NCBI RefSeq assembly: GCF_021021555.1
Contig: NZ_JAINWA010000003.1
Location: forward strand, 1,798,001-1,862,000
DNA length: 64,000 bases
Origin: Teretinema zuelzerae
Lineage (GTDB): Bacteria; Spirochaetota; Spirochaetia; Treponematales; Treponemataceae
Reading direction: 5' to 3'
Part shown: positions 1,879-62,315 of the stretch, in pieces
Layout: each line of letters starts with the position of its first letter
Position numbering within the stretch: position 1 is the stretch's first letter
Program-made: the position numbers and the translations under genes
Notes under the pieces: model-generated
Databases searched by the model: none
Told to the model about the DNA's origin: nothing
Seen by the model: only the letters and a program-made list of their open reading frames with translations

Positions 1879-1963
1879 GTGAACTAAGTAATCAAAAATG
1901 TACGTTTCTGCCCATGTTTTCGGGTATCTTCTCTTCTCTTCCCGCACCGCGCAAGCGGTGTCG

Positions 1964-4758: not shown

Positions 4759-5634
4759 CTAAAAAAACACTCTATTTGTAATATATTCATTACCATTAAA
4801 TAGATACTTTCCAATTATAAGTTTTAATAAATTATTGTATTTAATAAAGAATAATTCCTTGTTGTTTTCTTTAATTTCTTTATAACTATATAACTTGTTT
4901 TTCCAACGATCAGATATTTTCATTTTATCTTCGTATAAAACAATATTTGTTTTCTTAATAATAAAAGTATAAAAGAATAACACTATTCTTATTAGTGAAT
5001 ATCCAAGCATGAATATCCCAGAACTCAATATAATAATTCTATCTAATTCACTTATTTTATTTAGTGATAAGTACCAACCAGAAAGCATTGAAAAAGAAAT
5101 AAACAGTAAAGTATAAGTACCCTTTAATACTACAGGTTTTATTTTTAATCCATTAACTAATTGTTTATTAATATTATCAATAACTTCAATCGGTCTTTTT
5201 TCATCTGAATTATTGAAGTAATGAGCACTTTTATTATCTTCAATAAAAAGAAATATTCTTTTATCAGTTGTGAATATATATTTTGAGTAAGAAAAATTCC
5301 TAAACCTAAGCTTCGGGTCTACATATGAACACAAACCACCTTGATAACCAATTATTTCATTTTTATTGATTGTGTATTTATTAAATAGATTATTTATTTC
5401 AATTAGATCATCAGATATGATTACTTCGGTGAATAATCTATACATTGTGCTAAAAATTACATAGCTTACAGTGGTTAGTATTACAGAAACAGAAATTAGA
5501 TTAAGATATTTTGACATATCTAACACGTTTATTAATAAAAACACAGAAACAGATAACACAGACAGCATTAGTAAAGAGTAACCAATTTTTACTGTTAATG
5601 AATTAATTATTTTAATTTTATAAGGTAATTCCAT
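4759..5634 (-). CDS. Hypothetical membrane protein (four TM segments)
   Basis: 291 aa, not recognised. Two hydrophobic hairpins (roughly residues 15-65 and 175-235) each precede a polar region. The arrangement, a TM pair followed by a compact beta-rich stretch (ISDDLIEI..., and again VLYEDKMKISDRW), is reminiscent of bacterial PH-like membrane proteins, but this is only an impression. The start was set at the ATG preceded by AGGAAGAATT; an in-frame ATG further upstream lies in the leader hairpin and cassette end. Confidence 0.7.
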   Translation of the reverse strand: MELPYKIKIINSLTVKIGYSLLMLSVLSVSVFLLINVLDMSKYLNLISVSVILTTVSYVIFSTMYRLFTEVIISDDLIEINNLFNKYTINKNEIIGYQGGLCSYVDPKLRFRNFSYSKYIFTTDKRIFLFIEDNKSAHYFNNSDEKRPIEVIDNINKQLVNGLKIKPVVLKGTYTLLFISFSMLSGWYLSLNKISELDRIIILSSGIFMLGYSLIRIVLFFYTFIIKKTNIVLYEDKMKISDRWKNKLYSYKEIKENNKELFFIKYNNLLKLIIGKYLFNGNEYITNRVFF

Positions 5635-5659
5635 AATTCTTCCTGCGCCGAAGGCGTCC

Positions 5660-5772
5660 ACCTAACATTTGCTTAACCTGCGAGGCATTTTGGCGCGATT
5701 CTTGCCGAGGAGCGCAGCGACGACCAGCAAGAATCGTGACATAGCCGAGTCAGGTTGAAGCAGTTGTTAGGT
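5660..5772 (-). repeat. attC site, type E (CGAGGC...GCCGAG core)
   Basis: 113 bp. Boxes ACCTAAC and GTTAGGT. Inner pair ending in CGAGG, central stem GATTCTTGCCG with GCAAGAATC. Confidence 0.95.
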
Positions 5773-6366: not shown

Positions 6367-6391
6367 TTATTTTCCTCTGCCCGAAGGGTCC

Positions 6392-6510
6392 ACCTAACAT
6401 TTTGCTTAACCTGTAATTCCGGCCCGAAGGGATTGGCGCACTTTTTGCCGAGCGAAGCGACTGCAAAAAGTGTGACAAAAGGAATTATCAGGTTGAAGCA
6501 GTTGTTAGGC
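6392..6510 (-). repeat. attC site, type D variant
   Basis: Boxes ACCTAAC and GTTAGGC. It has one extra T in the left spacer (AACATTTTGC) compared with other sites, and CACTTTTTGC/GCAAAAAGTG as central stem. Confidence 0.93.
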
Positions 6511-8978: not shown

Positions 8979-9716
8979 TCACAGATCAATATCAAATAAC
9001 TCACTAATATTATGTTTCAGTTCATTTTCATAAATAGCTATCACATCTTTAACTCTGAAAAACATACTATCCGCATTACCAATTTTACTTCGAGTTATCA
9101 ACCCTTTATCTTCTGCAATTTTTTGTACTTTTAACCAACCTTTATGATATTTTGGCAGCATTTCTGTTGAGATGAAATAATCATTCTGATTATATATTTT
9201 ATGAATTTCTTCATTCATTGGCATAAATAGTTTTGGCCAAACATCCTCTGGAATATTATTTTCCACATAATGCATCGCGGTTAATTTTCTAATATCAACA
9301 CCAACTAATAATCCATAACCATTATCATCTACAAAATCCATTAAATCATTTACATATTGATTGGCATTTTTACCCCATACTGCCATTCTGTGTTGTCCAG
9401 TTCCTATCACTGTTCCTGGCATCTTACAAAAAATGTCAGCAATAATTCCCATATCGGTTCTTTCATTATGGTTTTCATCCAACCATTTATTTTTAGTAAC
9501 AATTTCTAATGATACATCATGCTCAGTTAAGGGCAAGCATTTTGATAATGGAAAAGCAGGCATTATTATATTGCCCTCAGCTGTTATAATACTTTTTAAA
9601 TCAGTAATAATACTTTCGGGAGTACAGCTAGTGTCATTTATTGATCTCATTGATGAATGAAACTCAATCGACATACCTTTTGTAATTCCAGTACTTACTA
9701 AATCATTAAGAATCAT
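8979..9716 (-). CDS. AAC(3)-family N-acetyltransferase-like protein, copy 1
   Basis: 245 aa. It has the hallmarks of antibiotic (aminoglycoside 3-N) acetyltransferases of the AAC(3)/YokD fold: N-terminal FHSSMRSI (the family HsSL motif), GNIIMPAFP (family GTlvMPtfs), a central GTGQHRMAVWGKNA and the LTAMHYVEN helix carrying the conserved His. Family members transfer acetyl from acetyl-CoA to an amine of an aminoglycoside; the real substrate here is unknown because most chromosomal members are untested. Sole gene of the cassette, start preceded by GAGGAATTAAAGAAT. Duplicated in tandem in the next cassette. Confidence 0.85.
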   Translation of the reverse strand: MILNDLVSTGITKGMSIEFHSSMRSINDTSCTPESIITDLKSIITAEGNIIMPAFPLSKCLPLTEHDVSLEIVTKNKWLDENHNERTDMGIIADIFCKMPGTVIGTGQHRMAVWGKNANQYVNDLMDFVDDNGYGLLVGVDIRKLTAMHYVENNIPEDVWPKLFMPMNEEIHKIYNQNDYFISTEMLPKYHKGWLKVQKIAEDKGLITRSKIGNADSMFFRVKDVIAIYENELKHNISELFDIDL

Positions 9717-9862: not shown

Positions 9863-10600
9863 TCACAGATCAATATCAAATAACTCACTAATATTATGTT
9901 TCAGTTCATTTTCATAAATAGCTATCACATCTTTAACTCTGAAAAACATACTATCCGCATTACCAATTTTACTTCGAGTTATCAACCCTTTATCTTCTGC
10001 AATTTTTTGTACTTTTAACCAACCTTTATGATATTTTGGCAGCATTTCTGTTGAGATGAAATAATCATTCTGATTATATATTTTATGAATTTCTTCATTC
10101 ATTGGCATAAATAGTTTTGGCCAAACATCCTCTGGAATATTATTTTCCACATAATGCATCGCGGTTAATTTTCTAATATCAACACCAACTAATAATCCAT
10201 AACCATTATCATCTACAAAATCCATTAAATCATTTACATAGTGATTGGCATTTTTACCCCATACTGCCATTCTGTGTTGTCCAGTTCCTATCACTGTTCC
10301 TGGCATTTTACAAAAAATGTCAGCAATAATTCCCATATCGGTTCTTTCATTATGGTTTTCATCCAACCATTTATTTTTAGTAACAATTTCTAATGATACA
10401 TCATGCTCAGTTAAGGGCAAGCATTTTGATAATGGAAAAGCAGGCATAATTATATTGCCCTCAGCTGTTATAATACTTTTTAAATCTGTAATAATACTTT
10501 CGGGAGTACAGCTAGTGTCATTTATTGATCTCATTGATGAATGAAACTCAATCGACATACCTTTTGTAATTCCAGTACATACTAAATCATTTATAATCAT
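9863..10600 (-). CDS. AAC(3)-family N-acetyltransferase-like protein, copy 2
   Basis: 245 aa, differing from copy 1 at only a handful of residues (for example MIIND for MILND, VCTG for VSTG, ANHYV for ANQYV). All family motifs are intact. A third, diverged member is at 48604. The tandem arrangement with identical attC sites points to recent duplication of the cassette in place. Confidence 0.85.
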   Translation of the reverse strand: MIINDLVCTGITKGMSIEFHSSMRSINDTSCTPESIITDLKSIITAEGNIIMPAFPLSKCLPLTEHDVSLEIVTKNKWLDENHNERTDMGIIADIFCKMPGTVIGTGQHRMAVWGKNANHYVNDLMDFVDDNGYGLLVGVDIRKLTAMHYVENNIPEDVWPKLFMPMNEEIHKIYNQNDYFISTEMLPKYHKGWLKVQKIAEDKGLITRSKIGNADSMFFRVKDVIAIYENELKHNISELFDIDL

Positions 10601-12185: not shown

Positions 12186-13256
12186 TTACGTTTCAGGAAG
12201 CTTTATCTTACACAATATTTCATGTGCAGGAACTTCTTCATACGGTTCCAAGGTCATAATGATTTCCATTGCCGCATGACATATAGGACAATGATCTACA
12301 AATTCCGCTTCTTCCATCTCTATTTCCATCGGAAATATTTTCTGCAGTTTTTCTAACTTATCACTGTATTGGTTTGAGTATAATCCATAATTCCGTACTG
12401 TTACAGTATGAGGGACAGGTATGTGATTCATGTATCGAGATACAAACAGTTCCTTATCCAACTCAATCCGCGTCTCTTTCCCTGCATGACGTTCAATATA
12501 ACTAAATGTTCCTTTCTCTTCGTTTTCCACCAATTCTTGATTAAGGTTTATCACTACACCCTTAGCGGCGTGTGCTAAATATCCTATTATCTTTTGTACA
12601 TTTCCCTGATAATATGTTGCGTATACATTCCATTCACGATCATTAATATCCTTCTGTTCAGGAATATCTTGTATATGTTTTCTCTGTAATTCCTTAACAA
12701 GATATTCTTTTATCACATCAGTAATTCGCGTATATGATATCGTTCCTAACGGCATCCAGTCACCGTTACCAGTCAGTCCACCATCAGATAACACGCAATG
12801 TATATGCGGTTTATAAGACATCCCCTTTCCATGTGTTTGAAATACCGCTATACATCCAGGGGTTATTCCATAATATTTCGATATGTTATTTATTGCACGC
12901 TTTACACATTCGAAAAAAGCGTTCATGAAATCTTTCTTATTTCTGAGCCACACGCCAGTGAAAACCTGTGGAATTGATATGACTAAATGAAAGTGATTAA
13001 CATTTAAAACAGATGTTAATACCTTATCCTCCCATCTTTTCTGGTTCGCTTTATAACAGATAGGACAACCACGTTGGTTACAGGAATTATATACAGTTGC
13101 GATTGTTCCACATTTTGTGCATTGCACAACTCGGCCGCCATACCGGGTTGTTTTACACTCCCTCATATTCTGAAGAGAGCGTTTTTGTTTCGCATCAAGC
13201 TTAAAGGATCTTTTAAGCGCAACAGAGCATATCTGCTCGAGTATACGGTTCTTCAT
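12186..13256 (-). CDS. IS91-like HUH transposase, cassette copy 1
   Basis: 356 aa. Zinc-binding cysteines at about C46, C49, C59, C64 and C67; HUH motif H151-I-H153 (KPHIHCVL); one candidate catalytic Tyr at about Y226 in IIGYLAHAAK. Classical IS91 transposases have a second Tyr four residues later (YLxRY), which is Ala here, as in ISCR-type elements that also use one Tyr. The cassette from attC to attC is the repeated unit: all three copies have the same cassette ends (GTTAGTC/GACTAAC) and about 220 bp of shared 3' non-coding DNA, so they spread as cassettes. Confidence 0.85.
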   Translation of the reverse strand: MKNRILEQICSVALKRSFKLDAKQKRSLQNMRECKTTRYGGRVVQCTKCGTIATVYNSCNQRGCPICYKANQKRWEDKVLTSVLNVNHFHLVISIPQVFTGVWLRNKKDFMNAFFECVKRAINNISKYYGITPGCIAVFQTHGKGMSYKPHIHCVLSDGGLTGNGDWMPLGTISYTRITDVIKEYLVKELQRKHIQDIPEQKDINDREWNVYATYYQGNVQKIIGYLAHAAKGVVINLNQELVENEEKGTFSYIERHAGKETRIELDKELFVSRYMNHIPVPHTVTVRNYGLYSNQYSDKLEKLQKIFPMEIEMEEAEFVDHCPICHAAMEIIMTLEPYEEVPAHEILCKIKLPET

Positions 13257-13328
13257 GCATAGCTTGTATGCACAAATTCCTTTTCCTGCCTAACATATTC
13301 TTTCTTTTCCTCGGCGCCGTAGGCGTCC

Positions 13329-17684: not shown

Positions 17685-17749
17685 ATTTTCTCCTATATCA
17701 TAAATTGATTATTACAATCAAAATTTGATGACTACTAATACTTTAATAA

Positions 17750-21662: not shown

Positions 21663-22733
21663 TTACGTTTCAGGAAGCTTTATCTTACACAATATTTCAT
21701 GTGCAGGAACTTCTTCATACGGTTCCAAGGTCATAATGATTTCCATTGCCGCATGACATATAGGACAATGATCTACACATTCCGCTTCTTCCATCTCTAT
21801 TTCCATCGGAAATATTTTCTGCAGTTTTTCTAACTGATCACTGTATTGGTTTGAGTATAATCCATAATTCCGTACTGTTACAGTATGAGGGACAGGTATG
21901 TGATTCATGTATCGAGATACAAACAGTTCCTTATCCAACTCAATTCGCGTCTCTTTCCCTGCATGACGTTCAATATAACTAAATGTTCCTTTCTCTTCGT
22001 TTTCCACCAATTCTTGATTAAGGTTTATCACTACACCCTTAGCGGCGTGTGCTAAATATCCTATTATCTTTTGTACATTTCCCTGATAATATGTTGCGTA
22101 TACATTCCATTCGCGATCATTAATATCCTTCTGTTCAGGAATATCTTGTATATGTTTTCTCTGTAATTCCTTAACAAGATATTCTTTTATCACATCAGTA
22201 ATTCGCGTATATGATATCGTTCCTAACGGCATCCAGTCACCGTTACCAGTCAGTCCACCATCAGATAACACGCAATGTATATGCGGTTTATAAGACATCC
22301 CCTTTCCATGTGTTTGAAATACCGCTATACATCCAGGGGTTATTCCATAATATTTCGATATGTTATTTATTGCACGCTTTACACATTCGAAAAAAGCGTT
22401 CATGAAATCTTTCTTATTTCTGAGCCACACGCCAGTGAAAACCTGTGGAATTGATATGACTAAATGGAAGTGATTAACATTTAATACAGACGTTAATACC
22501 TTATCCTCCCATCTTTTCTGGTTCGCTTTATAACAGATAGGACAACCACGTTGGTTACAGGAATTATATACAGTTGCGATTGTTCCACATTTTGTGCATT
22601 GCACAACTCGGCCGCCATACCGGGTTGTTTTACACTCCCTCATATTCTGAAGAGAGCGTTTTTGTTTCGCATCAAGCTTAAAGGATCTTTTAAGCGCAAC
22701 AGAGCATATCTGCTCGAGTATACGGTTCTTCAT
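21663..22733 (-). CDS. IS91-like HUH transposase, cassette copy 2
   Basis: 356 aa, differing from the copy at 12186 only near the C-terminus (SDQLEK for SDKLEK, AECVDHC for AEFVDHC). The Cys residue in AECVDHCPIC restores a possible second zinc site that copy 1 has lost. HUH and single Tyr are intact. Confidence 0.85.
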   Translation of the reverse strand: MKNRILEQICSVALKRSFKLDAKQKRSLQNMRECKTTRYGGRVVQCTKCGTIATVYNSCNQRGCPICYKANQKRWEDKVLTSVLNVNHFHLVISIPQVFTGVWLRNKKDFMNAFFECVKRAINNISKYYGITPGCIAVFQTHGKGMSYKPHIHCVLSDGGLTGNGDWMPLGTISYTRITDVIKEYLVKELQRKHIQDIPEQKDINDREWNVYATYYQGNVQKIIGYLAHAAKGVVINLNQELVENEEKGTFSYIERHAGKETRIELDKELFVSRYMNHIPVPHTVTVRNYGLYSNQYSDQLEKLQKIFPMEIEMEEAECVDHCPICHAAMEIIMTLEPYEEVPAHEILCKIKLPET

Positions 22734-24282: not shown

Positions 24283-24391
24283 TTCTAACATTTGCTTAAC
24301 CTGCGTTTTGTTTGGCGCGGTTTTTGCCGAGCGTAGCGAAGTGCAAAAATCCGTGACAAGCAAATAAGTCAGGTTGAAGCAGTTGTTAGAT
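24283..24391 (-). repeat. attC site, type A
   Basis: Boxes TTCTAAC and GTTAGAT. It separates two tandem copies of the 390-bp cassette. Confidence 0.95.
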
Positions 24392-30536: not shown

Positions 30537-30577
30537 TTTTTGTAATATCCTTTTTTCGCGCCGCGAAAGCGGCGTCG

Positions 30578-33836: not shown

Positions 33837-33940
33837 ATTCTAAGATGTTTCAATAAAGAATTGTATTGACATAATTTGTTGTATTATAAGGATTTATAAC
33901 ATAATTATAGGTGATCTTTTGTTGCGCGCGAAGCGCGTCC

Positions 33941-39498: not shown

Positions 39499-39527
39499 GA
39501 TTCTTTTCCCCGGCGCCGGAGGCGTCT

Positions 39528-40429: not shown

Positions 40430-40474
40430 TTTAACTCCTTGATTTTCTATTTTCGCGCCGCATAAGCGGCGTCG

Positions 40475-42922: not shown

Positions 42923-43027
42923 ATTCTAAGATGTTTTAATTATGGATTGTATTGCCATAAATTGTTTTATTATAAGGATTTATAACATAACTATAATGTG
43001 CTCTTTTGTTGCGCGCGAAGCGCGTCC

Positions 43028-45441: not shown

Positions 45442-45716
45442 TATAACAGGATCCTTTTATCATATTTTTTTAACCGTAATTCACTAGCTATAACAACGGT
45501 ATTAAACTCATTTTAATTAGTTTGTTTAGAACAGAAAAGTCTAGTTCTGTGTTGTAGATGAAACGCAATTAATTGCTTAACTAATGGCGTCCAATAAAGA
45601 GTTAATTAAAAGATTTACTTTATACATAATTCAACAGACTTAAAGAATTAACAAAAACAAGCACAATGGTTTAAATCAATATTTAGCACATTCGTTGCGC
45701 CGCGAAAGCGGCGTCA

Positions 45717-46685: not shown

Positions 46686-46732
46686 ATGACCTCGAATTAA
46701 TAAATACAATATGCGCCGCATAAGCGGCGTCC

Positions 46733-47519: not shown

Positions 47520-47597
47520 CTTCTTCCTCTTCAAGTTAGTATTAACAAAAATAGAGTAAATCAATATAACATTCTTTCTGCCGCGCGCGCAGCGTCG

Positions 47598-51450: not shown

Positions 51451-51563
51451 TAAGGTAAAATAACATTTTAATTACCTATTTGTTTATCCTGTAAGTATTT
51501 AACTTTTTTTAAATTGAACTTAAAACGATTTAGTAATATTTATCCGCTGCGCCGCAGGCGTCC

Positions 51564-52453: not shown

Positions 52454-52488
52454 TTTGTCCTCCTTCACGCGCCGCGATAGCGGCGTCG

Positions 52489-57832: not shown

Positions 57833-57884
57833 AAATGTCCTCGGGTTTATTAAATATGAATTTTGCGCCGCGTAAGCGGCGTCC

Positions 57885-58163: not shown

Positions 58164-59234
58164 TTACGTTTCAGGAAGCTTTATCTTACACAATATTTCA
58201 TGTGCAGGAACTTCTTCATACGGTTCCAAGGTCATAATGATTTCCATTGCCGCATGACATATAGGACAATGATCTACACATTCCGCTTCTTCCATCTCTA
58301 TTTCCATCGGAAATATTTTCTGCAGTTTTTCTAACTTATTGCTGTATTGGTTTGAGTATAATCCATAATTCCGTACTGTTACAGTATGAGGGACAGGTAT
58401 GTGATTCATGTATCGAGATACAAACAGTTCCTTATCCAACTCAATTCGCGTCTCTTTCCCTGCATGACGTTCAATATAACTAAATGTTCCTTTCTCTTCG
58501 TTTTCCACCAATTCTTGATTAAGGTTTATCACTACACCCTTAGCGGCGTGTGCTAAATATCCTATTATCTTTTGTACATTTCCCTGATAATATGTTGCGT
58601 ATACATTCCATTCGCGATCATTAATATCCTTCTGTTCAGGAATATCTTGTATATGTTTTCTCTGTAATTCTTTAACAAGATATTCTTTTATCACATCAGT
58701 AATTCGCGTATATGATATCGTTCCTAACGGCATCCAGTCACCGTTACCAGTCAGTCCACCATCAGATAACACGCAATGTATATGCGGTTTATAAGACATC
58801 CCCTTTCCATGTGTTTGAAATACCGCTATACATCCAGGGGTTATTCCATAATATTTCGATATGTTATTTATTGCACGCTTTACACATTCGAAAAAAGCGT
58901 TCATGAAATCTTTCTTATTTCTGAGCCACACGCCAGTGAAAACCTGTGGAATTGATATGACTAAATGAAAGTGATTAACATTTAAAACAGATGTTAATAC
59001 CTTATCCTCCCATCTTTTCTGGTTCGCTTTATAACAGATAGGACAACCACGTTGGTTACAGGAATTATATACAGTTGCGATTGTTCCACATTTTGTGCAT
59101 TGCACAACTCGGCCGCCATACCGGGTTGTTTTACACTCCCTCATATTCTGAAGAGAGCGTTTTTGTTTCGCATCAAGCTTAAAGGATCTTTTAAGCGCAA
59201 CAGAGCATATCTGCTCGAGTATACGGTTCTTCAT
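58164..59234 (-). CDS. IS91-like HUH transposase, cassette copy 3
   Basis: 356 aa, nearly identical to the copies at 12186 and 21663 (YSNKLEK and AECVDHC). HUH motif and lone Tyr intact. Flanked by the same cassette ends GTTAGTC/GACTAAC. Confidence 0.85.
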   Translation of the reverse strand: MKNRILEQICSVALKRSFKLDAKQKRSLQNMRECKTTRYGGRVVQCTKCGTIATVYNSCNQRGCPICYKANQKRWEDKVLTSVLNVNHFHLVISIPQVFTGVWLRNKKDFMNAFFECVKRAINNISKYYGITPGCIAVFQTHGKGMSYKPHIHCVLSDGGLTGNGDWMPLGTISYTRITDVIKEYLVKELQRKHIQDIPEQKDINDREWNVYATYYQGNVQKIIGYLAHAAKGVVINLNQELVENEEKGTFSYIERHAGKETRIELDKELFVSRYMNHIPVPHTVTVRNYGLYSNQYSNKLEKLQKIFPMEIEMEEAECVDHCPICHAAMEIIMTLEPYEEVPAHEILCKIKLPET

Positions 59235-60035: not shown

Positions 60036-60140
60036 CGTGCGACTCCCTAAAAGAATTTATCAGTGCTTTATAAAAGGATATTCATTCTTACGTAGTTGAG
60101 AAGAACTATATTTCTTTTCTCCGCGGCGGCGCAGCCGTCT

Positions 60141-62193: not shown

Positions 62194-62315
62194 AACTAAC
62201 ATTTGCTTAACCTGTATTTTCGCGCCCGCAGGGCTTGGCGCATTTTGTGCGTCAGGAGCGTAGCGACAGCACAAAATGTGACAAAGAAAATATCAGGTTG
62301 AAGCAGTTGTTAGGT
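62194..62315 (-). repeat. attC site, type C
   Basis: Boxes AACTAAC and GTTAGGT. Confidence 0.95.

Follow-up and report, generated by a model that had tools for sequence, protein, structure and literature searches.

We found that cassettes of a Treponemataceae integron open with a small hairpin that stands at a fixed distance from the R' box, obeys a loop rule on one DNA strand, is present independently of genes and recurs in related spirochaetes. We infer that this leader hairpin folds in vivo and acts in recombination, and from the sequence evidence we consider it probable (roughly 60%) that it is an accessory single-stranded DNA element flanking the R box at the recombining end of the cassette.

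The window, by which we mean the whole stretch of 64,000 nucleotides that was analysed (positions 1798001-1862000 of the contig), is part of one integron array that extends from ~1697 to 1879 kb, a span of ~180 kb. The integrase gene lies on the same contig at 1880840-1882243, on the minus strand and in the same direction as the cassettes, and is identified by a TIGR02249 match of 457 bits at 1880840-1881784 (cut-off 265). We detected attC sites with an R/L-box search, which replaced initial generic attC finders of poor sensitivity. The array holds ~186 attC sites in a single orientation, with R''/L''/L'/R' boxes and an extra base in the 5' arm. The attI site adjoins intI, with a GTT junction after IntI, and a hairpin opens the first cassette. 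All the tests applied identify the system as an integron. Its attC sites terminate in an R' box, G^TTRRRY, at which the following cassette starts. We also observed the R' box GTTATCC, which departs from GTTRRRY, at window positions 551, 2700, 4619, 15837, 16576, 20488, 34679, 53228 and 61695; the leaders behind it recur many times, with a hairpin in every one.

The start of a cassette has the frame G^TTRRRY-N-GA-[hairpin]-C, often with a purine run next. The hairpin is plain, 9-16 nt long, and starts at index 10 from the cleavage point in 93 of the 95 parsed leaders of the array itself and in 77 of the 87 from related Treponemataceae. Within the window, a hairpin can be parsed at 62 of the 67 R' sites that were recognised, a count that includes a chance AT parse at 17736-17745 (TAA-AGTA-TTA); an additional R' site (6398), with an extra base before it, carries the CCC-TTC-GGG leader. 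Representative sites are listed in Table 1. The preliminary description had correctly located the element at 5635-5666, a span that contains both the hairpin and the R' box GTTAGGT. Of the variants that it named, CCC-TTC-GGG, the GCCGC-type stems (five sites) and CGCGC-TTC-GCGCG were all found again, but the R' search did not find its site near 57860. A repeated ORF-less cassette family of ~400 nt, at 24283, 24782, 50671, 56905 and 62194 of the window and elsewhere in the array, has the leader GTTAGTTCGACCAATCTACACTTATTAAT, in which GA is kept and there is no hairpin.

Table 1. Leader hairpins and adjoining features, in window coordinates; hairpin sequences are those of the coding strand.
Feature	Position	Strand	Remarks
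Leader hairpin CGCC-TTC-GGCG, cassette 4759-5661	5646..5656	-	+ strand CGCC-GAA-GGCG; locus of the preliminary description
Conserved linker NGA between R' box and stem, here GGA	5657..5659	-	TCC on + strand
R' box GTTAGGT of the preceding attC, cleavage G^TT	5660..5666	-	hairpin begins 10 nt on
attC before the leader	5660..5772	-	folds on + (bottom) strand, apart from the leader hairpin
Leader hairpin CCC-TTC-GGG, ends approximate	6379..6388	-	adjoins R' at 6392-6398
Leader hairpin CGCCGC-TTTC-GCGGCG	30559..30574	-	bottom loop GAAA
Leader hairpin CGCCGC-TTAT-GCGGCG	40456..40471	-	loop exception, long stem
Leader hairpin CGCCGC-TTTC-GCGGCG	45698..45713	-	
Leader hairpin CGCCGC-TTAT-GCGGCG	46714..46729	-	
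Leader hairpin CGCCGC-TATC-GCGGCG	52470..52485	-	bottom loop GATA
Leader hairpin CGCGC-TTC-GCGCG	33925..33937	-	
Leader hairpin CGCGC-TTC-GCGCG	43012..43024	-	
Leader hairpin CACCGC-TTGC-GCGGTG	1945..1960	-	both stem sides changed; bottom loop GCAA
Leader hairpin CGCC-TAC-GGCG	13315..13325	-	bottom loop GTA; cassette with IS91-type transposase
Leader hairpin CGCC-TCC-GGCG	39514..39524	-	bottom loop GGA
Leader hairpin CGCC-TGC-GGCG	51550..51560	-	bottom loop GCA
Leader hairpin CGGC-TGC-GCCG	60127..60137	-	
Leader hairpin CGC-TGC-GCG, 3-bp stem	47586..47594	-	bottom strand contains d(GCGCAGC)
R' site of repeated cassette family, leader GTTAGTTCGACCAATC...	62194..62200	-	GA kept, no hairpin

Pairing at this place exceeds chance. 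We counted perfect stems of at least 3 bp starting at index 9-11, and found them in 95 of 104 distinct leaders of the array, as compared with 13.8 ± 3.7 (maximum 27) in shuffled sequences; the earlier claim that each cassette has a hairpin therefore holds for most leaders, but two leader families are without one. Among other Treponemataceae, 87 of 120 leaders had such a stem, against 16 ± 3.6 in shuffles. Distinct leaders share ancestry, so these counts overstate their independence; nevertheless, hairpins recur in several families, and the leaders include 44 distinct perfect hairpins. We measured covariation in sequences picked by loop and GA only, with pairing not a criterion. The score was 0.458, compared to 0.262 ± 0.038 for shuffles, and was reached in none of 500 of them, while versions slid along the leader scored at most 0.287. 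Hence, the kind of covariation check that had been proposed gave a positive result for these sequences, and the claim that the sequence varies while pairing is kept at a fixed place is borne out. Diversification of stems and loops with pairing kept implies continuing selection after the birth of the cassettes.

The loops are restricted in sequence and in strand. On the coding strand they read TTC, TAC, TGC or TCC, or TTTC, TCTC, TATC, TAGC, TGTC, TTGC, TTAC, TAAC, TGAC, TCAC and similar; on the bottom strand these are GNA and GNNA loops, closed by C-G. For stems of 3-4 bp, 116 of 125 loops were GNA or GNNA on the bottom strand and none on the top strand. By contrast, the rule is relaxed for stems of at least 5 bp (26 of 57; Fisher p = 7e-12); the loop seems to be required by short stems and dispensable for long ones. 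All four bases occur as N in GNA, and the GNNA loops include GTTA, GATA, GTCA, GACA and GCTA; this range, with members such as GTTA and GTCA, indicates a DNA rule (cGNNAg) rather than the GNRA rule of RNA. Work by Nakano from 2002 reportedly places GNNA loops in an unusually stable class in DNA. Two RNA-loop readings were rejected, that of a UNCG loop because stems in the UNCG register are always shorter than with the triloop (0/105 as long), and that of a GNRA loop because no short-stem GNA/GNNA loop lies on the top strand. GNA loops are described as unusually stable in DNA in passages of PMC11101458, which cites Yoshizawa 1997 and Hirao 1994, and of PMC5815330. The computed DNA energies (Mathews 2004 set) were equal for the two strands, in a set that appears to be without special loop terms, and the strand argument therefore rests on the published loop data. 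An A...C pair flanks the stem in 161 of 200 leaders, equivalent to a G.T wobble on the bottom strand; mismatches inside stems (A.C versus G.T), of which there are too few, revealed no wobble bias to either strand.

The same polarity is seen in attC itself. GNA/GNNA loops at attC apices in this and other integrons occur on the bottom strand only (13:0, 21:0 and 9:0), which is where they would be expected, the bottom strand being the one that folds and is recombined (PMC2727003). In VCR, according to Bouvier 2009 (PMC2727003), bottom-strand recombination rose 1.6-fold with a 5'-GAA tip and fell 2.4-fold with TTC; the paper also cites loss of IntI1 binding after a GAA-to-TTC change in attCaadA1. 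The loop rule for leaders was derived without the sister families, and ~19 of 20 of their leader loops obey it.

The leader hairpin is not part of attC. In the bottom-strand DNA fold it stands on its own, 2 nt away from the R helix and without L/R boxes or extrahelical bases, and the inspected sites have no matching sequence upstream of R''. An extended attC fold, which the preliminary description had named as a finding that would overturn its reading, was rejected on these grounds. A comparison of partition functions with and without the hairpin gave no change in R-box pairing (0.638 versus 0.631), and a role as a simple insulator of attC folding is not supported.

We considered whether the hairpin might instead act in the transcript, either keeping the ribosome-binding site clear of attC or protecting a processed 5' end. 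Transcription of the array from its promoter would include the hairpin along with the cassette, and GAGGA-type purine motifs lie downstream in 24 of 32 hairpin cassettes with an ORF start within 30 nt. However, the hairpin is equally present where no such gene follows: it was found in 32 of 33 cassettes with the first sense ORF at most 30 nt away, 10 of 10 at 31-100 nt, 28 of 30 beyond 100 nt, and 11 of 11 in which the main ORF is antisense. It was also found in 27 of 33 cassettes without an ORF of at least 60 aa, some of which may reflect frameshifts from assembly error, an explanation that does not extend to antisense ORFs of 135 aa. Likewise, the exact motif GAGGAAA, which the hairpin was said always to precede, was found behind only 19 of the window's 67 leaders, GAGGA-like purine runs being commoner. 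Coding-strand loops are neither UNCG nor GNRA, many stems are just 3 bp, isolated 3-bp leaders have RNA minimum free energies of approximately -1.5 to -2.3 kcal/mol, and TNC/TNNC loops were found in none of 30 terminator-like hairpins of the same DNA. The mRNA roles proposed earlier (shielding from attC, ribosome access and transcript stability) thus fit poorly with an element that is independent of genes, has stems that are often 3-4 bp, and carries its loop rule on the opposite strand, and we regard such roles as unlikely.

About as improbable, in our estimate, is passive inheritance, in which a stereotyped 5' piece (R' half, GA, hairpin and purine run) was attached when cassettes were made and matters only at birth, or for IS91-type HUH transposases rather than for IntI. 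The leader does behave as a unit, the array is rich in cassettes with HUH transposases, and single-stranded DNA is what HUH enzymes act on as a class; against this stands the continuing selection after birth that the diversified but paired stems and loops imply. Recognition of the inverted repeat as duplex or cruciform by a protein, with loop identity secondary, would suit the long-stem clade, whose ANT-type loops read alike on both strands, but not the strict one-strand polarity of short-stem leaders, and the wide differences among stem sequences argue against sequence-specific duplex binding; we consider this reading very unlikely.

Use of the hairpin as an accessory single-stranded element is the reading that we favour. 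The bottom strand of attC is recombined when single-stranded, with lagging-strand exposure, SSB and RecA having been discussed in this context (PMC8946536). In our model, the bottom strand would become single-stranded as lagging-strand template, as incoming DNA or by extrusion, and the leader hairpin would then fold beside the R helix of attC, set off by the conserved 3-nt linker (TCN on the bottom strand). Placed 2-3 nt outside the R helix and at a constant distance from the cut, it would stand beside the R-bound IntI protomer. There it would most likely, in our view, help IntI to capture that end, to synapse or arrange it, or help later replicative resolution.

We next consider the distribution of the hairpin. 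Post-attI leaders, that is, those of first cassettes, have the hairpin at most Treponemataceae loci for which the sequence is long enough, and it also occurs in sister families of the order and in one further family of the class. Hence, absence from related arrays, which would have counted against the preliminary description, is not what we observed. In integrons of other phyla, a stem was present at the place in 9 of 61 leaders, as compared with 8.5 in shuffles, and GA at index 8-9 was seen once among these 61. A second Treponemataceae clade (L054, L056, L061, L065 and L084) has longer stems, ACT/AAT-type loops outside the GNA rule, and other attC boxes. Four of its loci (L054, L061, L065 and L084) share a distinct attC L box, GCGGTACAACCAGTT, and the GCACTG form is frequent among their ACT/AAT leader loops. 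One genome (G283) has hairpin leaders and attC sites, and no HARP-IntI was found in it; its integrase may have been lost.

Spirochaete IntI proteins near leader hairpins carry an N-terminal extension of ~65 aa that IntI of other phyla almost always lack. The extension matches HARP (PF07443) in 7 of 22 members, at best with 1.1e-7, and the best solved structure for its profile is the SMARCAL1 HARP domain, 4o66 (E = 2.8e-4; next match 0.64). A single-sequence structure model of one HARP-IntI (L120), made without an alignment, had a pLDDT of 43. In SMARCAL1-type proteins, HARP domains act on branched DNA, and for this reason we tentatively propose the extra domain as reader of the hairpin. HARP domains have been linked to fork reversal and annealing (PMC4666394). 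A leader hairpin lies within 1500 nt of the integrase in 28 of 37 loci with HARP and 1 of 82 without, in a set whose HARP-bearing hairpin loci belong mostly to one clade, such that descent alone could give the association. Moreover, Elusimicrobiota loci with HARP-IntI have complete attC leaders without the hairpin, indicating that HARP is not sufficient and that the association may reflect shared descent; these loci rule out strict coupling of HARP and hairpin. Two Elusimicrobiota contigs end inside GTTGAACGAAGCCGCTTCGCG, possibly a truncated GCCGC-TTC-GCG leader hairpin. The Elusimicrobiota integrases with an N-terminal HARP-like domain (L149, L296-L317) are in several cases at contig ends or beside attC-like sites. 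In our estimate, a two-part recognition, in which HARP-fused IntI would read a second DNA hairpin at the cassette start beside the folded attC, is less likely than not.

Comparison with known systems sets the leader hairpin apart: it is neither attC, nor a feature of attI, nor a UNCG or GNRA RNA leader. It shares with the attC bottom-strand hairpin, the substrate of IntI, conservation of structure over sequence, a functional bottom strand and the GAA-type tips found there; however, it is a separate element of 9-16 nt outside the R box that lacks attC's boxes and extrahelical bases. Short-stem leaders follow, on the bottom strand only, the loop rule and C-G closing pair of d(cGNAg)/d(cGNNAg) mini-hairpins such as d(GCGAAGC), and CGC-stem leaders contain d(GCGNAGC) itself; these mini-hairpins are known from biophysics and from other elements, and none was found described as the leader of a cassette. 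The class 1 integron leader (attI1, ORF-11, with a disputed aminoglycoside riboswitch) is also structured DNA at the start of the first cassette, which some authors read as RNA, but it is single and belongs to attI, whereas here each cassette has its own hairpin, a feature of the bottom DNA strand. The N-terminal extension of spirochaete IntI is homologous by profile to the HARP domain of SMARCAL1 and UvsW; in spirochaetes, unlike in those proteins, it is fused to an integron integrase and is here a putative DNA reader. Consistent with the statement that no such leader was known, our literature search, which included Treponema integron papers and had subscription papers such as the original T. 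denticola integron report outside its range, found no description of leader hairpins in integron cassettes, and no paper on HARP in integron integrases.

The mechanism of integron recombination is known from work with Vibrio and class 1 systems, in which attC alone is the cassette signal. If the favoured reading is correct, a second structured-DNA element on the integrase's strand, together with an extra domain of the type that acts on branched DNA, would represent another way to build a synapse. If two-part recognition is also correct, both cassette ends would be marked by bottom-strand structure, in a synaptic complex unlike that of Vibrio or class 1. The second element would help to explain the continued activity of very long spirochaete arrays, and offers a testable way into the handling of flanking single-stranded DNA by IntI or host factors. 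Cassette annotation also gains, as the leader marks starts even where R' departs from GTTRRRY.

We made several further observations on the array and its genome. Cassettes with IS91-type Y2 (HUH) transposases are present in several near-identical copies, at 12186-13256, 21663-22733 and 58164-59234 of the window (minus strand); the copies at 12186-13256 and 21663-22733, for which this was tested, match PF04986 and PF14319. One transposase copy is the first cassette at attI (L009/L010). Other attC-like sites lie on another contig of the same genome (L089-L097), apart from the main array. A cassette gene at 9863-10600 of the window resembles aminoglycoside 3-N-acetyltransferase (PF02522), and a second ORF of equal length lies at 8979-9716.
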